57,559 nt of DNA from Oscillospiraceae bacterium (GTDB lineage Bacteria > Bacillota > Clostridia > Oscillospirales > Oscillospiraceae): assembly GCA_017624915.1 (NCBI GenBank), contig JAGAMC010000023.1:1-57559 (forward strand), written 5' to 3'. Positions 13,540 to 18,508 of this stretch are shown one piece after another. Made by a program: the position numbers and the translations under genes. The stretch's first letter is position 1; every line of letters starts with the position of its first letter. A model generated the notes under the pieces. The model was given only the letters and a program-made list of their open reading frames with translations. It made no database searches and was not told the origin of the DNA.

Positions 13540-13570
13540 GGGCGCAAGAAAACAGTTCTTGCGCCCTTTT
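13540..13570 (+). terminator. Terminator-like hairpin inside the dcw cluster
   Basis: GGGCGCAAGAA / TTCTTGCGCCC stem (11 bp), short loop, then TTTT, lying between ftsL and the PBP gene. As the tail is only four T, it is likely partial, which would lower expression of downstream genes relative to mraZ-rsmH-ftsL. Confidence 0.7.
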
Positions 13571-13591: not shown

Positions 13592-16045
13592 ATGGCACAG
13601 CAGAATGAACGCAGGGAGCGCAGGGAGCGGCAGGAACGTACCTCCAAACAGCTGATTTTTCGGCGTACCGTCATGCTGATGGTGATTTTTGGCATGCTGA
13701 CCTTCATCCCTCTGGGCTGGAAGCTGTGGGATGTTGCCATCGTCCACCATGAGGAGTACCAGCTGCGCCAGCTGCAGCAGTCCACCCGGGATGTGGAGGT
13801 CAAATCCAGCCGCGGCATGATCCGGGACGCCAAGGGCAACATCATGGCCATGTCCGCCACGGTGTACAACCTGATCCTGTCACCTCTGGACCTGATCAAC
13901 GGCTTTGATCAGAAGGACTATAAAAATGCGGATGGGACACCTGACGTGCAGGCCTATGAGGCCGCCATCCGGCAAAGAAGGGACATGATCACCGACAAGG
14001 TCTGTGCCGTGCTGGATTTGGACCGGGAGACGGTGTCCAAACGCATGGAGTACACCTGGTCCCAGTACGAGGTGCTCAAAAAGAACGTCGAGGGCGAGCA
14101 GGCGGAGGAGCTGCGGGCCTTCATCGCCGACAACAAACTGGGCTACTCGCTGGTCATGACGCCCACCACCAAACGCTATTACCCCCTGTCCAGCGTGGCG
14201 TCTCACGTTGTGGGCTTTGTGAACGACAGCGGCGGCGCCTATGGTGTGGAGGCCGCCTACGAGGATGTTCTGGAGGGCGTTTCCGGCCGCGTGGTCACCT
14301 CCAAGACCGGCGCGGGCACCGAGATCTATAACAGCTACTCCAACTATGTGGATGCTGTCAACGGAAACGACATTACCCTGACCCTTGACAGCAACATCCA
14401 GCGCATGGCTGAACAGACGCTGGCCGCGGGGATCGAAAAGTACGACATCCGAAACGGCGGTATCTGCCTTGTTATGGAGCCTAAAACGGGGGCCATGCTG
14501 GCTATGGCAAGCTCGCCCAACTATGACCTGAACCACTACGGGACCATCTACGACGAGGTGCTCAACCAGCAGGCGGCCGCTCTGAAGGAACAGAAATATC
14601 AGGAGCTGAAAAGCCAGAACCTGAAGGACGAGGACGGCAAGCCCCTGACCGAGGAGGAGCTGCGCAAAAAAGCGTCTTCCGCAGCGGTCTCTGATGCGCT
14701 GAACAGACAGTGGCGCAACAAAGTGCTCAACGACACCTACGAGCCGGGCTCTACCTTCAAGTCCATGGTGCTGGCGGCGGCTCTGGAGACGGGCGCGGTG
14801 TCCGAAAGTGACACCTTCTACTGCCCGGGCTACTATGTGGTAAGCGGGCGGCGCATCAGCTGCCACGACCATTCCGGCCATGGCAGCCAGACCCTTGCCG
14901 AGGCAGTGCAGAACTCCTGCAACCCGGCTTTTATGATGATTGGACAAAAGCTGGGAGCAGAGGCGTTTTACGACTACTTTGAAGCCTTTGGCCTGAAGAG
15001 CAAGACGGGCATCGACCTGCCCGGCGAGGCTACCGGTCTTGTGTGGAGCCGCGACTACTTCACCAGTGCCGAGGGCTACCAGTCTTTGGCCACCGCCTCT
15101 TTCGGCCAGCGCTTTACCGTCAGCCCCCTGCAGCTGCTTACAGCAGTTTCCGCCACGGTCAACGGCGGTTACCTCATGCAGCCCTATGTGCTGCAGTCTG
15201 TCAGTGATGCTTCGGGCAATATCATCCGTCAGACCGAACCCACTGTGGTGCGTCAGGTCATCAGCGAGCAGACCAGCCGTCAGGCTGCGGAGATCCTGGA
15301 GAGCGTGGTGTCCGAAGGAACAGGCCGCAACGCCTACGTGGCCGGCTACCGCATCGGCGGCAAGACCGGTACTGCTGAGGGTGAGGTAGGCGTGAAGGAC
15401 GAGGAGATCGTCTCCTTTGTGGGCTTCGCCCCCGCCAATGACCCTCAGGTCATCGTGCTGCTCTATTTTGACACCCCGGGCCGAAACGTGTCGGGCAGCA
15501 AGTACGGATCTACAGGCTACTACATCAGCGGCGGACAGATGGCAGCCCCCATGGCGGGCCAGCTGATTGCCGACGTGCTGGACTATATGGGCGTGGAGCG
15601 GCAGTACACTCAGGAAGAAGCCAACGCGGCCGATGTGTCCGTCCCCAAGGTGGTGGGCTATGACCTGACCACCGCACAGGCCGCACTCAAGCGCAAGAAC
15701 CTTACCTGCCGCACGGTGGGGCAGGGCGATGTGGTCACCGGGCAGATCCCTGCCGTGGGTGCCACCATCCCGGGCAACAGCACCGTCATCCTCTACATGG
15801 GTGAGGAGACCCCCACCGATCAGGTGATCGTTCCCGACCTGAGCGGTCTGACTTATGATCAGGCAAAGAAGAAACTCAACGATCTGGGCCTGTACCTGCG
15901 CGCCTCCGGCGTGTCTTACTACAGCGCCGTGACCAAGGCGCAGGATCAGAGCGTGGGTCCGGGCGAGACTGTGGACCGGGGCACGGTGATCCCGGTGCGC
16001 TTTGTGGATACCAGCGTAACTGACTCTTTTACTCCTCTGGAATAA
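13592..16045 (+). CDS. Class B penicillin-binding protein with PASTA domains (SpoVD/FtsI type)
   Basis: Predicted 817-aa peptidoglycan transpeptidase. Layout: short basic cytosolic tail, TM helix at about 27-46, N-terminal dimerisation region (SSRGMIRDAKGNIMAMS), transpeptidase domain with nucleophile S387 in EPGSTFK, the SxN motif in QNSCNPAFM, and the KTG motif at K591 (GGKTGTAEG). Two C-terminal PASTA domains follow (about 690-745 and 750-815: VPKVVGYDLTTAQAALK, VPDLSGLTYDQAKKKL). The PASTA domains and genome position match SpoVD/PbpB enzymes; the division versus spore-cortex role cannot be separated here because only one such gene is in the cluster. Start at 13592 follows GAGGTGATGG. Works with FtsW at 18.6 kb. 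Confidence 0.93.
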   Translation: MAQQNERRERRERQERTSKQLIFRRTVMLMVIFGMLTFIPLGWKLWDVAIVHHEEYQLRQLQQSTRDVEVKSSRGMIRDAKGNIMAMSATVYNLILSPLDLINGFDQKDYKNADGTPDVQAYEAAIRQRRDMITDKVCAVLDLDRETVSKRMEYTWSQYEVLKKNVEGEQAEELRAFIADNKLGYSLVMTPTTKRYYPLSSVASHVVGFVNDSGGAYGVEAAYEDVLEGVSGRVVTSKTGAGTEIYNSYSNYVDAVNGNDITLTLDSNIQRMAEQTLAAGIEKYDIRNGGICLVMEPKTGAMLAMASSPNYDLNHYGTIYDEVLNQQAAALKEQKYQELKSQNLKDEDGKPLTEEELRKKASSAAVSDALNRQWRNKVLNDTYEPGSTFKSMVLAAALETGAVSESDTFYCPGYYVVSGRRISCHDHSGHGSQTLAEAVQNSCNPAFMMIGQKLGAEAFYDYFEAFGLKSKTGIDLPGEATGLVWSRDYFTSAEGYQSLATASFGQRFTVSPLQLLTAVSATVNGGYLMQPYVLQSVSDASGNIIRQTEPTVVRQVISEQTSRQAAEILESVVSEGTGRNAYVAGYRIGGKTGTAEGEVGVKDEEIVSFVGFAPANDPQVIVLLYFDTPGRNVSGSKYGSTGYYISGGQMAAPMAGQLIADVLDYMGVERQYTQEEANAADVSVPKVVGYDLTTAQAALKRKNLTCRTVGQGDVVTGQIPAVGATIPGNSTVILYMGEETPTDQVIVPDLSGLTYDQAKKKLNDLGLYLRASGVSYYSAVTKAQDQSVGPGETVDRGTVIPVRFVDTSVTDSFTPLE

Positions 16046-16090
16046 CAACCATCATAGAGAGAATGAAACCGCCCTGTGAGGGTGACAGCA

Positions 16091-17476
16091 TTGAAACTGC
16101 GCGATCTTCTGGTCGACGTCCCCCTCACAGGGGGCTCACTCGACCCGGAACTGGAAATAAATTCCATATCTGTGGAAAAACAAGGCGGGCAGCGGGGGGT
16201 TCTGTACATGGAACTGTCCCAGGACAGCCCGGGGACTTCGTCCGGCGGAGCCGTGTGCGTAAATGGAAGCTGTCTGCAAACGGATGATCCGTGGCTGACT
16301 CTGGCCCGACTGGGCGCCAACTGGTACTGCAGACCGGGCTCGGGTATGGTGCTGACTGCGGTGGCGGGCGGGGGCGACAGCGCTCTTGTTGTCCATCTGC
16401 TGCAGATAGTGCTGGAGACCGTGCCACATGTCCGCGTGGGTGTTATCGCGCCGGACAGAGTGTGGATCGACGGCGTGGAACTGCCCCGGGGGCAGCGGGA
16501 GCCGGGTGGCCTTTGCGTGCAGCGGCTGCTGCGGCGCATGGCAGACGCGCGCTGCACCCATGTGATCCTGCATCTGGACGATGGGGCGCTGATGCGCCGG
16601 GAGTATGCGGGACTGCGCATGAGTGTGACGGCCCTGACCGGCCCCACCCGGCACAGGCAGGAACTGGGCGCCCTGCTGGCCGGAAGCGATATGACCGTTT
16701 TAAATCTTGACGAACGGGACTGGGAGGATTATGTTAGTATCATCCCGGAAAATACCTTTACATATTCTGAAAACAAGGCCCGGGCAGACCTGACGGCGAG
16801 GAATCTGCGGCTGTTTCCCGGCCATGTGGAATTTGAGGCGGTAGCGGTGGGGAAGATCCGCCGCATACACCTGCCGGTGCCCGGCGGCTTTGCGGTGTAC
16901 CACGGCCTGTGCGTGCTTGCCTGCGGCCTGTGTCTGGGCCTCAGACTGGAGCGCATGGCGGGTGTCCTGCGCTCGGCTCAGGGCCTGCGGGGACGCATGG
17001 AGGTGCTGCCCGTCTGTGCTGCTTACACCGTGGTGATGGATGAAGCGTGTACGCCCGAAAGCCTTGAGCGCTCGCTGACCAGCGCCCGGGAATTTACCGC
17101 GGGCCGGCTGACCTGTCTGCTGGGATGCCCGGCGCAGGGGGAGCAGGAGACGCTCAGACAGCTTGGCAGCGTGGCGGAACAGCTGGCGGACCGCGTGATC
17201 CTGACCGGGACGGACTGTCAGCGTCAGGCGGCTATGCGTGCCATTGAAGATGTGATGTCCGGTATGGGCGGCTGGCACAGGCCATGCACCGTGGAACCCG
17301 ACCGTGAACGGGCCATCTGCAGCGCTCTGGAGCGGGCAGACCCGGGGGACGTGATCCTGGTGACCGGGGCCGGTGTACATCAGGGGCCGGACAGTTCTGA
17401 TGAGCGGGAATTGATACACAGCTATATCCGCAGGCAGCACGCCTGCAGGGAAAAAGGCGCCCGGGCCGTTGTATGA
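16091..17476 (+). CDS. MurE-like Mur-ligase homologue lacking catalytic motifs (pseudoenzyme candidate)
   Basis: Predicted 461-aa protein exactly where murE belongs, between the class B PBP and mraY. The Mur fold signature persists: MKLRDLL start, ELEINSISV, HLPVPGGFAVYHGLCVLA (MurE LPLPGRFNVYNAL), LRGRMEVLP, TPESLERSLTSAREF, LADRVILT, AIEDVMSGM and ALERADPGDVILVTG. Yet each active-site motif is altered: the P-loop TGTNGKT reads VAGGGDSA (91-98), DYAHTP reads DEACTP (317-322), GCGGDRD reads GCPAQGE (345-351), the substrate-selecting DNPR is TGTDCQRQ (372-379), and GKGHE is GAGVH (426-430). No carbamylated-lysine KARLF segment is recognisable. ATP binding and ligation look impossible, but the frame is intact and well translated. 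TTG start at 16091 follows GAGGGTGA. Inference: a retained structural or regulatory paralogue; a true MurE must be encoded elsewhere. Confidence 0.8.
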   Translation: MKLRDLLVDVPLTGGSLDPELEINSISVEKQGGQRGVLYMELSQDSPGTSSGGAVCVNGSCLQTDDPWLTLARLGANWYCRPGSGMVLTAVAGGGDSALVVHLLQIVLETVPHVRVGVIAPDRVWIDGVELPRGQREPGGLCVQRLLRRMADARCTHVILHLDDGALMRREYAGLRMSVTALTGPTRHRQELGALLAGSDMTVLNLDERDWEDYVSIIPENTFTYSENKARADLTARNLRLFPGHVEFEAVAVGKIRRIHLPVPGGFAVYHGLCVLACGLCLGLRLERMAGVLRSAQGLRGRMEVLPVCAAYTVVMDEACTPESLERSLTSAREFTAGRLTCLLGCPAQGEQETLRQLGSVAEQLADRVILTGTDCQRQAAMRAIEDVMSGMGGWHRPCTVEPDRERAICSALERADPGDVILVTGAGVHQGPDSSDERELIHSYIRRQHACREKGARAVV

Positions 17477-17521
17477 CCGCTGGGGCAGACCAAAGAAAAA
17501 ACTCCATTGGAGGTTGCGGCG

Positions 17522-18508
17522 ATGTCTTTGTTAATCGGTTTTGTTGTGGCTTTTGCGGTCACCTATCTGCTGGGCAAGGTGCTTATCCCTGTTCTGCGCC
17601 GGCTGAAGGCGGGCCAGTCCATTAAGGAGATCGGGCCCACCTGGCACATGTCCAAGCAGGGAACGCCCACCATGGGCGGCCTGATGTTCATCGCCGGCAT
17701 CGGCGCGGCGGTGCTGATCGCCGGCTGGCAGCAGATGCGGCAGGGCGTGTATACCCACCTGCTGGTGTTCCTGTTTGCACTGGTATTTGGTGCCATCGGC
17801 TATGTGGACGACTATGAGAAGGTCAAGCACCACCACAACACCGGTCTCACCGCGCCCCAGAAGTTTTTGCTGCAGCTGGCGGCATCCATTGCCTTTGTGG
17901 TGCTGCTGCGCCACCTGGGTGTCTTGAATCCGAACCTGTATATTCCTTTTGTGGGCAAAGAGCTGATCCTGCCCTGGCCTGCCTATATGGTTTTTGCTGC
18001 CTTTGTCATGGTGGCTACGGTGAATGCCGTGAACATCACCGACGGCGTGGACGGTCTGGCCACCGGCGTGACGATCCCTGTGGCTCTGTTCTATGTGGCG
18101 GCGGCTGTGTGGTGCGGCCGCATGGAACTGGGTGTGTTCGGCGCGGCGCTGGCCGGCGGGCTGGCCGCCTTCCTGATCTACAACTTCCACCCGGCCAAGG
18201 TGTTTATGGGGGACACCGGCTCGCTGTTTCTGGGCGGCGCGGTGTGCGGCATGGCCTTTGCCCTGAATATCCCGCTGGTCATCCCCATGATCGGCCTGAT
18301 CTATGTGGCGGAAGTGCTTTCCGACATTATTCAGGTGGCTTACTTCAAGCTTACCCATGGAAAGCGGATCTTCCGCATGGCGCCCCTGCATCATCATCTG
18401 GAGATGGGCGGCTGGAGTGAAGTGAAGCTGTTCAGTGTATTTTCTTTGATCACCGCCCTGATGTGTGTGCTGGCCTTCTGGGGCGTAATGGCGCGAATGA
18501 CAATTTGA
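17522..18508 (+). CDS. mraY: Phospho-N-acetylmuramoyl-pentapeptide transferase
   Basis: Predicted 328-aa polytopic membrane enzyme that moves phospho-MurNAc-pentapeptide onto undecaprenyl phosphate to form lipid I. Signatures: KEIGPTWHMSKQGTPTMGGL, the catalytic FGAIGYVDDYEKVKHHHNTGL, VNITDGVDGLATG, FHPAKVFMGDTGSLFLGG, and the C-terminal MAPLHHHLEMGGWSE. About ten TM helices. Start MSLLIGF is chosen because GGAGGT precedes it. Between mraY and ftsW the usual murD is absent. Confidence 0.97.
   Translation: MSLLIGFVVAFAVTYLLGKVLIPVLRRLKAGQSIKEIGPTWHMSKQGTPTMGGLMFIAGIGAAVLIAGWQQMRQGVYTHLLVFLFALVFGAIGYVDDYEKVKHHHNTGLTAPQKFLLQLAASIAFVVLLRHLGVLNPNLYIPFVGKELILPWPAYMVFAAFVMVATVNAVNITDGVDGLATGVTIPVALFYVAAAVWCGRMELGVFGAALAGGLAAFLIYNFHPAKVFMGDTGSLFLGGAVCGMAFALNIPLVIPMIGLIYVAEVLSDIIQVAYFKLTHGKRIFRMAPLHHHLEMGGWSEVKLFSVFSLITALMCVLAFWGVMARMTI

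Follow-up and report, generated by a model that had tools for sequence, protein, structure and literature searches.

The stretch of DNA analysed here (the window) is 57,559 nucleotides of contig JAGAMC010000023.1, from assembly GCA_017624915.1 of an Oscillospiraceae bacterium, and it carries a division and cell-wall (dcw) cluster in which profiles identify a penicillin-binding protein (PBP), mraY, ftsW, murG and murA. Between the PBP and mraY, ending about 20-40 nt before the latter in a tight operon, lies a degenerate murE (Table 1). Among the cluster ORFs between 10000 and 27000 there is no murF, murD or murC; these are found on other contigs, where murF has a D-Ala-D-Ala ligase as its neighbour. 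An Rfam scan returned only 23S, 5S and two tRNAs.

Table 1. The degenerate murE, its parts and its immediate neighbours (window positions; residue numbers refer to the 466-aa frame from 16076)
Feature	Position	Strand	Basis and remarks
SpoVD-like PBP (under the spoVD cut-off) with PASTA and transpeptidase domains	13592..16045	+	profile; ATG 13592 preferred over the mechanical start at 13559
Hairpin (CGCCCU/AGGGUG) enclosing most of the Shine-Dalgarno GAGGGTGA	16070..16084	+	folding
Degenerate MurE (pseudoenzyme)	16091..17476	+	likely TTG start, 461 aa and stop; profile and motif alignment
Domain 1 remnant (UDP binding in MurE)	16091..16342	+	limits by alignment; in 3/7 clade members only
Former P-loop, now AGGGDSALV (TGTNGKTTT in intact orthologues)	16364..16390	+	alignment
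Where the DHLDxH loop was deleted and the carbamoyl-lysine lost (residues 192-197)	16649..16666	+	alignment
Best kept stretch, residues 226-289 (NTFTYSENKARADLTARNLRLFPGHVEFEAV...YHGLCVLACGLCLGL), domain 2 strands and next helix	16751..16942	+	alignment, omega
Domain 3 (Mur_ligase_C), fold retained; DYAH, GCGGDRD, DNPR and GKGHE broken	16991..17473	+	profile, alignment
mraY, over the TIGR00445 cut-off	17507..18508	+	profile; own GGAGG Shine-Dalgarno in 7/7

Where does this gene begin? The frame around it is open from 16067 to 17476 (+), and the mechanically called start, a GTG at 16076, overlaps a good Shine-Dalgarno sequence (GAGGGTGA, 16078-16085). The likely start codon is the TTG at 16091, which we prefer because it is in register with the ATG of intact orthologues (TTGAAACTGCGC versus ATGAAACTGCGC) and lies 5 nt past GAGGGTGA. 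The initial annotation, made from the letters of the window, had described an intact frame with a strong Shine-Dalgarno, and that description stands.

By homology and by locus the gene is a MurE homologue, as had also been proposed. Pfam finds Mur_ligase_C (E 7.4e-22, over the cut-off) and Mur_ligase_M (E 5e-4, under it), and the nearest NCBIfam model is the DAP-adding MurE, NF001126, matched at E 2.4e-39; the protein falls within the Mur ligases by profile, though below the family cut-offs (135 bits where NF001126 requires 373, and 124 bits where TIGR01085 requires 257). The homology to MurE ligases runs along domains 2 and 3, and the nearest solved structures by sequence are MurE enzymes, followed by the plastid MurE-like protein PAP11. 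A structure model of the window protein (pLDDT 88.4, pTM 0.87) has as its best Foldseek matches first the PAP11 chain of the plastid polymerase (8r6s_Q, E 4.4e-31) and then MurE 8g6p (E 2.1e-29), and the 331-aa, two-domain protein of a relative (G051), also modelled confidently (pLDDT 87.3, pTM 0.82), has MurE 8g6p and PAP11 as its first matches; both models were built on alignments that include intact MurE and are therefore biased toward the MurE fold.

How widespread is the degenerate form? We searched all 64 genomes of a genus set for MurE and for the upstream PBP, the marker by which we define the clade discussed here. At the cluster locus, a MurE over the cut-off is found in 57 of the 64 and the dead form in seven, which make up one clade of gut bacteria: the window genome, G024, G029, G051, G052, G056 and G061 (1.5-1.9 Mb, 78-98% complete). 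The PBP of the six clade relatives is 69-81% identical to that of the window, while identity is 52-59% in 51 genomes and six have no match at E 1e-250. A search for the same degenerate gene between the PBP and mraY thus found it in the six nearest relatives; in all seven genomes it is in frame at that place (336-472 aa), and none of the seven copies exceeds the curated MurE cut-off. In the other 57 genomes MurE is over the TIGR01085 cut-off at E 2.5e-136 or better; by coordinates compared by eye, 49 have it on the contig of the PBP match and at most 1 kb downstream, G019 and G053 have the two matches on different contigs, and for the six without a PBP match the placement in the cluster is taken from the MurE match. 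Because the loss of motifs is common to 7/64 genomes, with the frame open in every one, we do not regard it as chance, and an assembly error is ruled out by the same loss in seven genomes.

A wider scan took 250 genomes of the family, drawn from a larger group, 75 of which matched at E 1e-60 (a threshold that would miss a weaker degenerate copy); among the matches listed there were 30 loci, and no second, independent loss of motifs appeared, all five motifs being present in the 29 loci other than the window's (four of them from the same genus). In a tree of 51 proteins a branch supported at 100/100 sets the seven dead copies apart from the rest; the tree program cautions that long branches meet, and that of G056 is very long (3.03).

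What, then, has been lost? Our reference was a set of 34 aligned intact MurE orthologues; some of the proteins came from named contigs (Flintibacter muris, Pseudoflavonifractor, Lawsonibacter), and one duplicate was dropped, since the MurE of G022 is the same as the Flintibacter muris DSM 110149 protein (equal scores). Judged against these sequences, the ATP-, UDP-MurNAc- and DAP-binding motifs are broken and the catalytic residues are lost. In the window protein, the P-loop VTGTNGKTTT has become VAGGGDSALV; the substrate motifs TTP and SSH have become REP and DDG; AKG, with its carbamoyl-lysine, has become ELG, and the DHLDxH loop is deleted; YN, DYAH and GCGGDRD read YH, DEAC and GCPAQGE; and in the amino-acid site, DNPR reads TDCQ and GKGHE reads GAGVH. 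We take SSH, TTP, DYAH and GKGHE to have their usual roles in MurE, GKGHE forming the amino-acid site together with DNPR. The roles of the P-loop, the carbamoyl-lysine and DNPR, and those of the domains (domain 1 being the one that binds UDP), are described in PMC3829189.

The same losses recur throughout the clade, and the claim that every catalytic motif was gone (P-loop, DYAHTP, GCGGDRD, DNPR and GKGHE all altered) extends from one protein to seven. In 7/7 copies the G, the K and the next two T of GKTTT are absent (no copy keeps the lysine), the DHLDxH metal loop is deleted, the carbamoyl-lysine is absent, and SSH and both T of TTP are lost; so are the Y and H of DYAH, the R of GCGGDRD, the P and R of DNPR and the K and H of GKGHE, with neither of the last two motifs whole in any copy. 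Other letters of the catalytic motifs persist in single rows. In columns fixed before the count was made, 66/350 conserved motif cells are kept versus 595/1232 other conserved cells, and the loss has therefore been aimed at the active site. Domain 1 has suffered as well: a remnant survives in three of the seven and the domain is absent from four, deleted near the domain 1/2 boundary, and at E 0.1 Pfam's N-domain model PF01225 matches none of the seven proteins but both intact controls. The sequence at the domain junction of G056 is unlike that of G029, G051 and G052, so domain 1 may have been lost once or twice.

The leader has fared better than the active site. The Shine-Dalgarno and a start codon in register are retained in all seven degenerate copies. 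A hairpin around the Shine-Dalgarno (16056-16099 in the window), approximately AAACCGCCCT-nn-GAGGGGTGA, precedes the degenerate murE in 7/7 clade members, with CCACCC in G061 and one G fewer in the window; its folding z is -2.46 in the window, and the three further sequences folded give weaker values (-1.91, -0.49 and -0.18). An equivalent hairpin, found by pattern at five distinct loci, also stands before intact murE in some relatives; since the hairpin is common to the degenerate clade and to those relatives, the leader has outlived the catalytic site.

A true MurE, the initial annotation had argued, must lie elsewhere in the genome, since murA, mraY and murG look active. It is there: on another contig, adjoining dapF, lies a MurE that scores 486 bits as a DAP ligase (cut-off 373), and a genome without MurE is ruled out. 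Each of the seven clade genomes has exactly one MurE over the TIGR01085 cut-off, and in each it adjoins dapF, which a profile identifies in the window genome. MurC, MurD, MurF and PgsB of the window genome are on other contigs, each over a cut-off; PgsB, the poly-gamma-glutamate synthase (313 bits, cut-off 222.7), is the fifth Mur_ligase_M protein of the genome, at L005:447-1703. Of the 57 genomes with a MurE over the cut-off in the cluster, seven have a further one that by score and length is of the dapF type (the dapF neighbour was seen in the two checked, G007 and G008), and the second MurE may therefore well predate the decay of the cluster copy.

Some observations on the surroundings belong here. 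Many other members of the genus have a second MurE-like protein in a long open frame (589-891 aa); in G039 (L158:4095-6464) a MurE-like ligase in which EEDSGEED replaces DNPR is fused to the acetylglutamate kinase argB (233.5 bits, cut-off 151.3), and in G044 (L159) the kinase part is no longer recognised by Pfam. Between murG and ftsQ, G052, G051 and G029 (L053, L054 and L055) have no murA match, unlike the window. All 11 genomes searched for MreB have it, and it does not set the clade apart.

Is the protein itself still being kept, as the initial annotation had supposed? We fitted a GY codon model to 324 ungapped codons of the seven degenerate genes, comparing it with omega fixed at 1 (the best of three fixed kappas), and obtained an omega of 0.139 (lnL -6298.9); omega 1 is 326 log units worse (lnL -6625.3). 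Two trios fitted separately agree: omega is 0.109 for G052/G051/G029 (lnL -2645.6 versus -2804.0 at omega 1, 158 units) and 0.142 for the window genome (G000) with G024 and G061 (-2916.4 versus -3042.1, 126 units). By region of the trimmed alignment omega is 0.23, 0.08 and 0.10, the lowest value belonging to codons 110-200, and pairwise dN/dS is 0.17, 0.18 and 0.21 by NG86 (three pairs) and 0.08 by YN00 (one pair). All estimates thus lie within 0.08-0.23; synonymous sites are near saturation, which makes the values rough, yet all are far from 1. For comparison, eight intact cluster MurE sequences give 0.119, and NG86 values for mraY, murG and ftsW over the same pairs (0.055-0.129) are below those of the degenerate gene. 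An omega of 0.135 for the PBP (seven genes) was dropped: G024 and G061 differ at 751/799 sites of the codon alignment where their proteins are 91% identical, a frame slip in G024 that was probably caused by stops inside its match.

Neutral evolution on the fitted tree, simulated 500 times, leaves on average 0.10 of the seven tips free of stops and at most two; we observe seven. Constraint is relaxed though real, for at a given mraY distance the degenerate protein has diverged further than intact MurE: at an mraY identity of 84-87% it is 64-66% identical, and intact MurE is there about 72-77% identical on average (the two identities being counted in slightly different ways). Where mraY is 73-80% identical the figure falls to 46-50%, and for G056 it is 39-46% at an mraY identity of 71-78%. 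Selection on the protein is nevertheless strong, and the degenerate MurE has been preserved as a protein by purifying selection after the loss of its catalytic residues; with its open frames and an omega far below 1, the pseudoenzyme reading stands. Simple decay, which the initial annotation had associated with intact motifs in close relatives and a dN/dS near 1, is rejected on both the dN/dS and the open frames: motifs are indeed intact elsewhere in the genus, but the loss extends to the six closest relatives.

Particular residues have been kept. Seventy-six columns are identical in the seven dead copies, 63 of them with the residue of the intact majority and 13 derived, and at 30 of the 63 the same genome's dapF-linked MurE has a different residue, so that what is kept has the character of the cluster type and is not the generic fold alone. 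The densest run is 226-289, whose intact counterpart, YSENK.ADLTAKNIRLFP..VEFEA...LPIPGGF.IYNAL, is itself strongly conserved (24/29 loci, 22 from other genera, in a set biased by our own choice of search pattern).

What might such a protein do? Our best explanation, which as a whole we hold to be somewhat more probable than its negation, is that the gene descends from the dcw cluster's murE and has become a pseudoenzyme with a docking or scaffolding role in cell-wall assembly. The dapF-linked MurE would first have covered catalysis; the cluster copy would then have been freed from chemistry and yet bound by an older second role of MurE, in which domains 2 and 3 would dock to MreB and to the membrane-side proteins encoded nearby (MraY, MurG and FtsW). 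The dead MurE would now be a non-catalytic scaffold or place-holder in a MraY-MurG-FtsW assembly, and four of the seven lineages have since dropped the UDP-binding domain, which a docking part would not need. A scaffold role is plausible in the light of what Mur enzymes bind: a MurE-MurF protein binds MurG with a KD of 0.57 µM (PMC6420597), and MreB, MraY and MurG are recognised by Mur enzymes (PMC4929429). The initial annotation had offered a scaffold or a sensor of UDP-MurNAc peptides; we reject the sensor because the substrate site is gone (the UDP-binding N-domain absent from 4/7, and TTP, SSH and DNPR broken in 7/7).

That selection has retained the dead MurE suggests a second, non-catalytic task for MurE-like proteins. 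More tentatively, and with rather less than even confidence, we would propose that MurE encoded in the cluster does two jobs that can be separated, and that the second is to dock, without catalysis, in the MraY-MurG-FtsW machinery through 226-289 and domain 3; the clade would then be a natural separation-of-function experiment, in which the enzyme was removed and the dock was kept. The stretch 226-289 could instead be kept for core packing and not as a docking face.

The strongest competitor, to our minds unlikely but deserving attention, would make the dead MurE a regulatory partner of the living one, setting its activity or bringing it to the membrane. Dead paralogues that act on living ones are a common theme among pseudoenzymes, and the two proteins co-occur in 7/7 genomes. 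PMC6420597 also describes a MurE-MurF fusion protein that can dimerise. The two paralogues, however, share only about 26% identity, and the 7/57 genomes that pair a dapF-type MurE with an over-cut-off cluster MurE need no dead regulator.

Could the old adenine pocket have found a new ligand, or a metal? We consider this improbable, more so than a regulator. The helix that carries the invariant H276, C279, C283 and C286 presumably borders that pocket; position 276 is H in all seven dead copies and N in 34/34 intact proteins, and position 279 is C in all seven and A, S or G in 34/34. The degenerate protein is also rich in cysteine in 7/7 genomes (3.1-4.6%, versus 0-1.9% in PBP, mraY, ftsW and murG), with 12-16 cysteines per copy versus a mean of 8.3 in the 34 intact MurE. 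Yet C283 and C286 are already present in 7/34 and 27/34 intact enzymes, which leaves only H276 and C279 as new; no one metal can be reached by all four positions, spread as they are over ten residues of helix; and the only invariant cysteines in the seven are these three and C347. A radical-SAM-like reading of C279-x3-C283-x2-C286 was rejected, as the residues sit on a Mur-fold helix and are partly present in intact enzymes.

Less probable still, and disfavoured, is that we are watching slow decay: a redundant gene, still unbroken, in lineages that are losing genes. The clade genomes are small (as are some others of the genus, at lower completeness), domain 1 is gone from four of the seven, and the protein evolves faster than intact MurE, with G056 very diverged. 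Against this stand the seven open frames with Shine-Dalgarno and start codon in register, an omega far below 1 in both trios, and a neutral simulation that never left more than two of seven copies free of stops. Finally, the notion that the frame survives only to pass ribosomes to mraY, which the tight operon might invite, is rejected and very improbable indeed, for it predicts amino-acid drift and an omega near 1 (we observe 0.08-0.23 and open frames), and mraY has a separate Shine-Dalgarno of its own in 7/7.

Why should a dead MurE that has been kept matter? Do the cytoplasmic Mur enzymes act as a complex, with a structural part for MurE? A clade whose MurE is free of chemistry makes this testable, in that its binding partners would tell us what MurE is for besides ligation. 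There is a warning for annotation pipelines, too: a gene in this place, flanked by the PBP and mraY, is readily mistaken for the MurE of the cell.

Pseudoenzymes are known and so is the MurE family; a selected, dcw-encoded MurE pseudoenzyme in a bacterium looks to be new. Our search for an earlier account of a bacterial MurE or Mur ligase pseudoenzyme covered open-licence papers by title and the start of the abstract, which is weak evidence, and found none. The dead MurE resembles the MurE of the dcw cluster (UDP-MurNAc-L-Ala-D-Glu:meso-DAP ligase) in locus, in descent and in the fold of domains 2 and 3, with the three-domain order in 3/7, and differs from it in the broken ATP, UDP-sugar, carbamoyl-lysine and DAP motifs (7/7) and the lost domain 1 (4/7). 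Its closest parallels are in plants, PAP11 and PpMurE2 (PMC9434261 and PMC9456514). PAP11, a MurE-like subunit of the plastid-encoded RNA polymerase of seed plants, is likewise a MurE descendant, serves as a subunit of a complex and comes first among the structural matches of the full model; its partner and organism are different, and its origin was probably independent. In plants the MurE-like proteins are extended at both the N- and the C-terminus, and DNPR is retained by most homologues in seed plants (PMC9434261), unlike the dead MurE, which at 336-472 aa has no such extensions in 7/7. PpMurE2 of Physcomitrium patens is also a second MurE, a non-ligase in preliminary tests, beside a working MurE1 (PMC9434261), but it keeps DNPR and other DAP residues, and it has long extensions instead of a lost domain. 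A further parallel is the complexes of MurE-MurF, MurG, MraY and MreB, in which MurE-type proteins dock to the very machinery that is encoded beside this gene (PMC6420597 and PMC4929429): there the ligase is active, whereas here it is dead.
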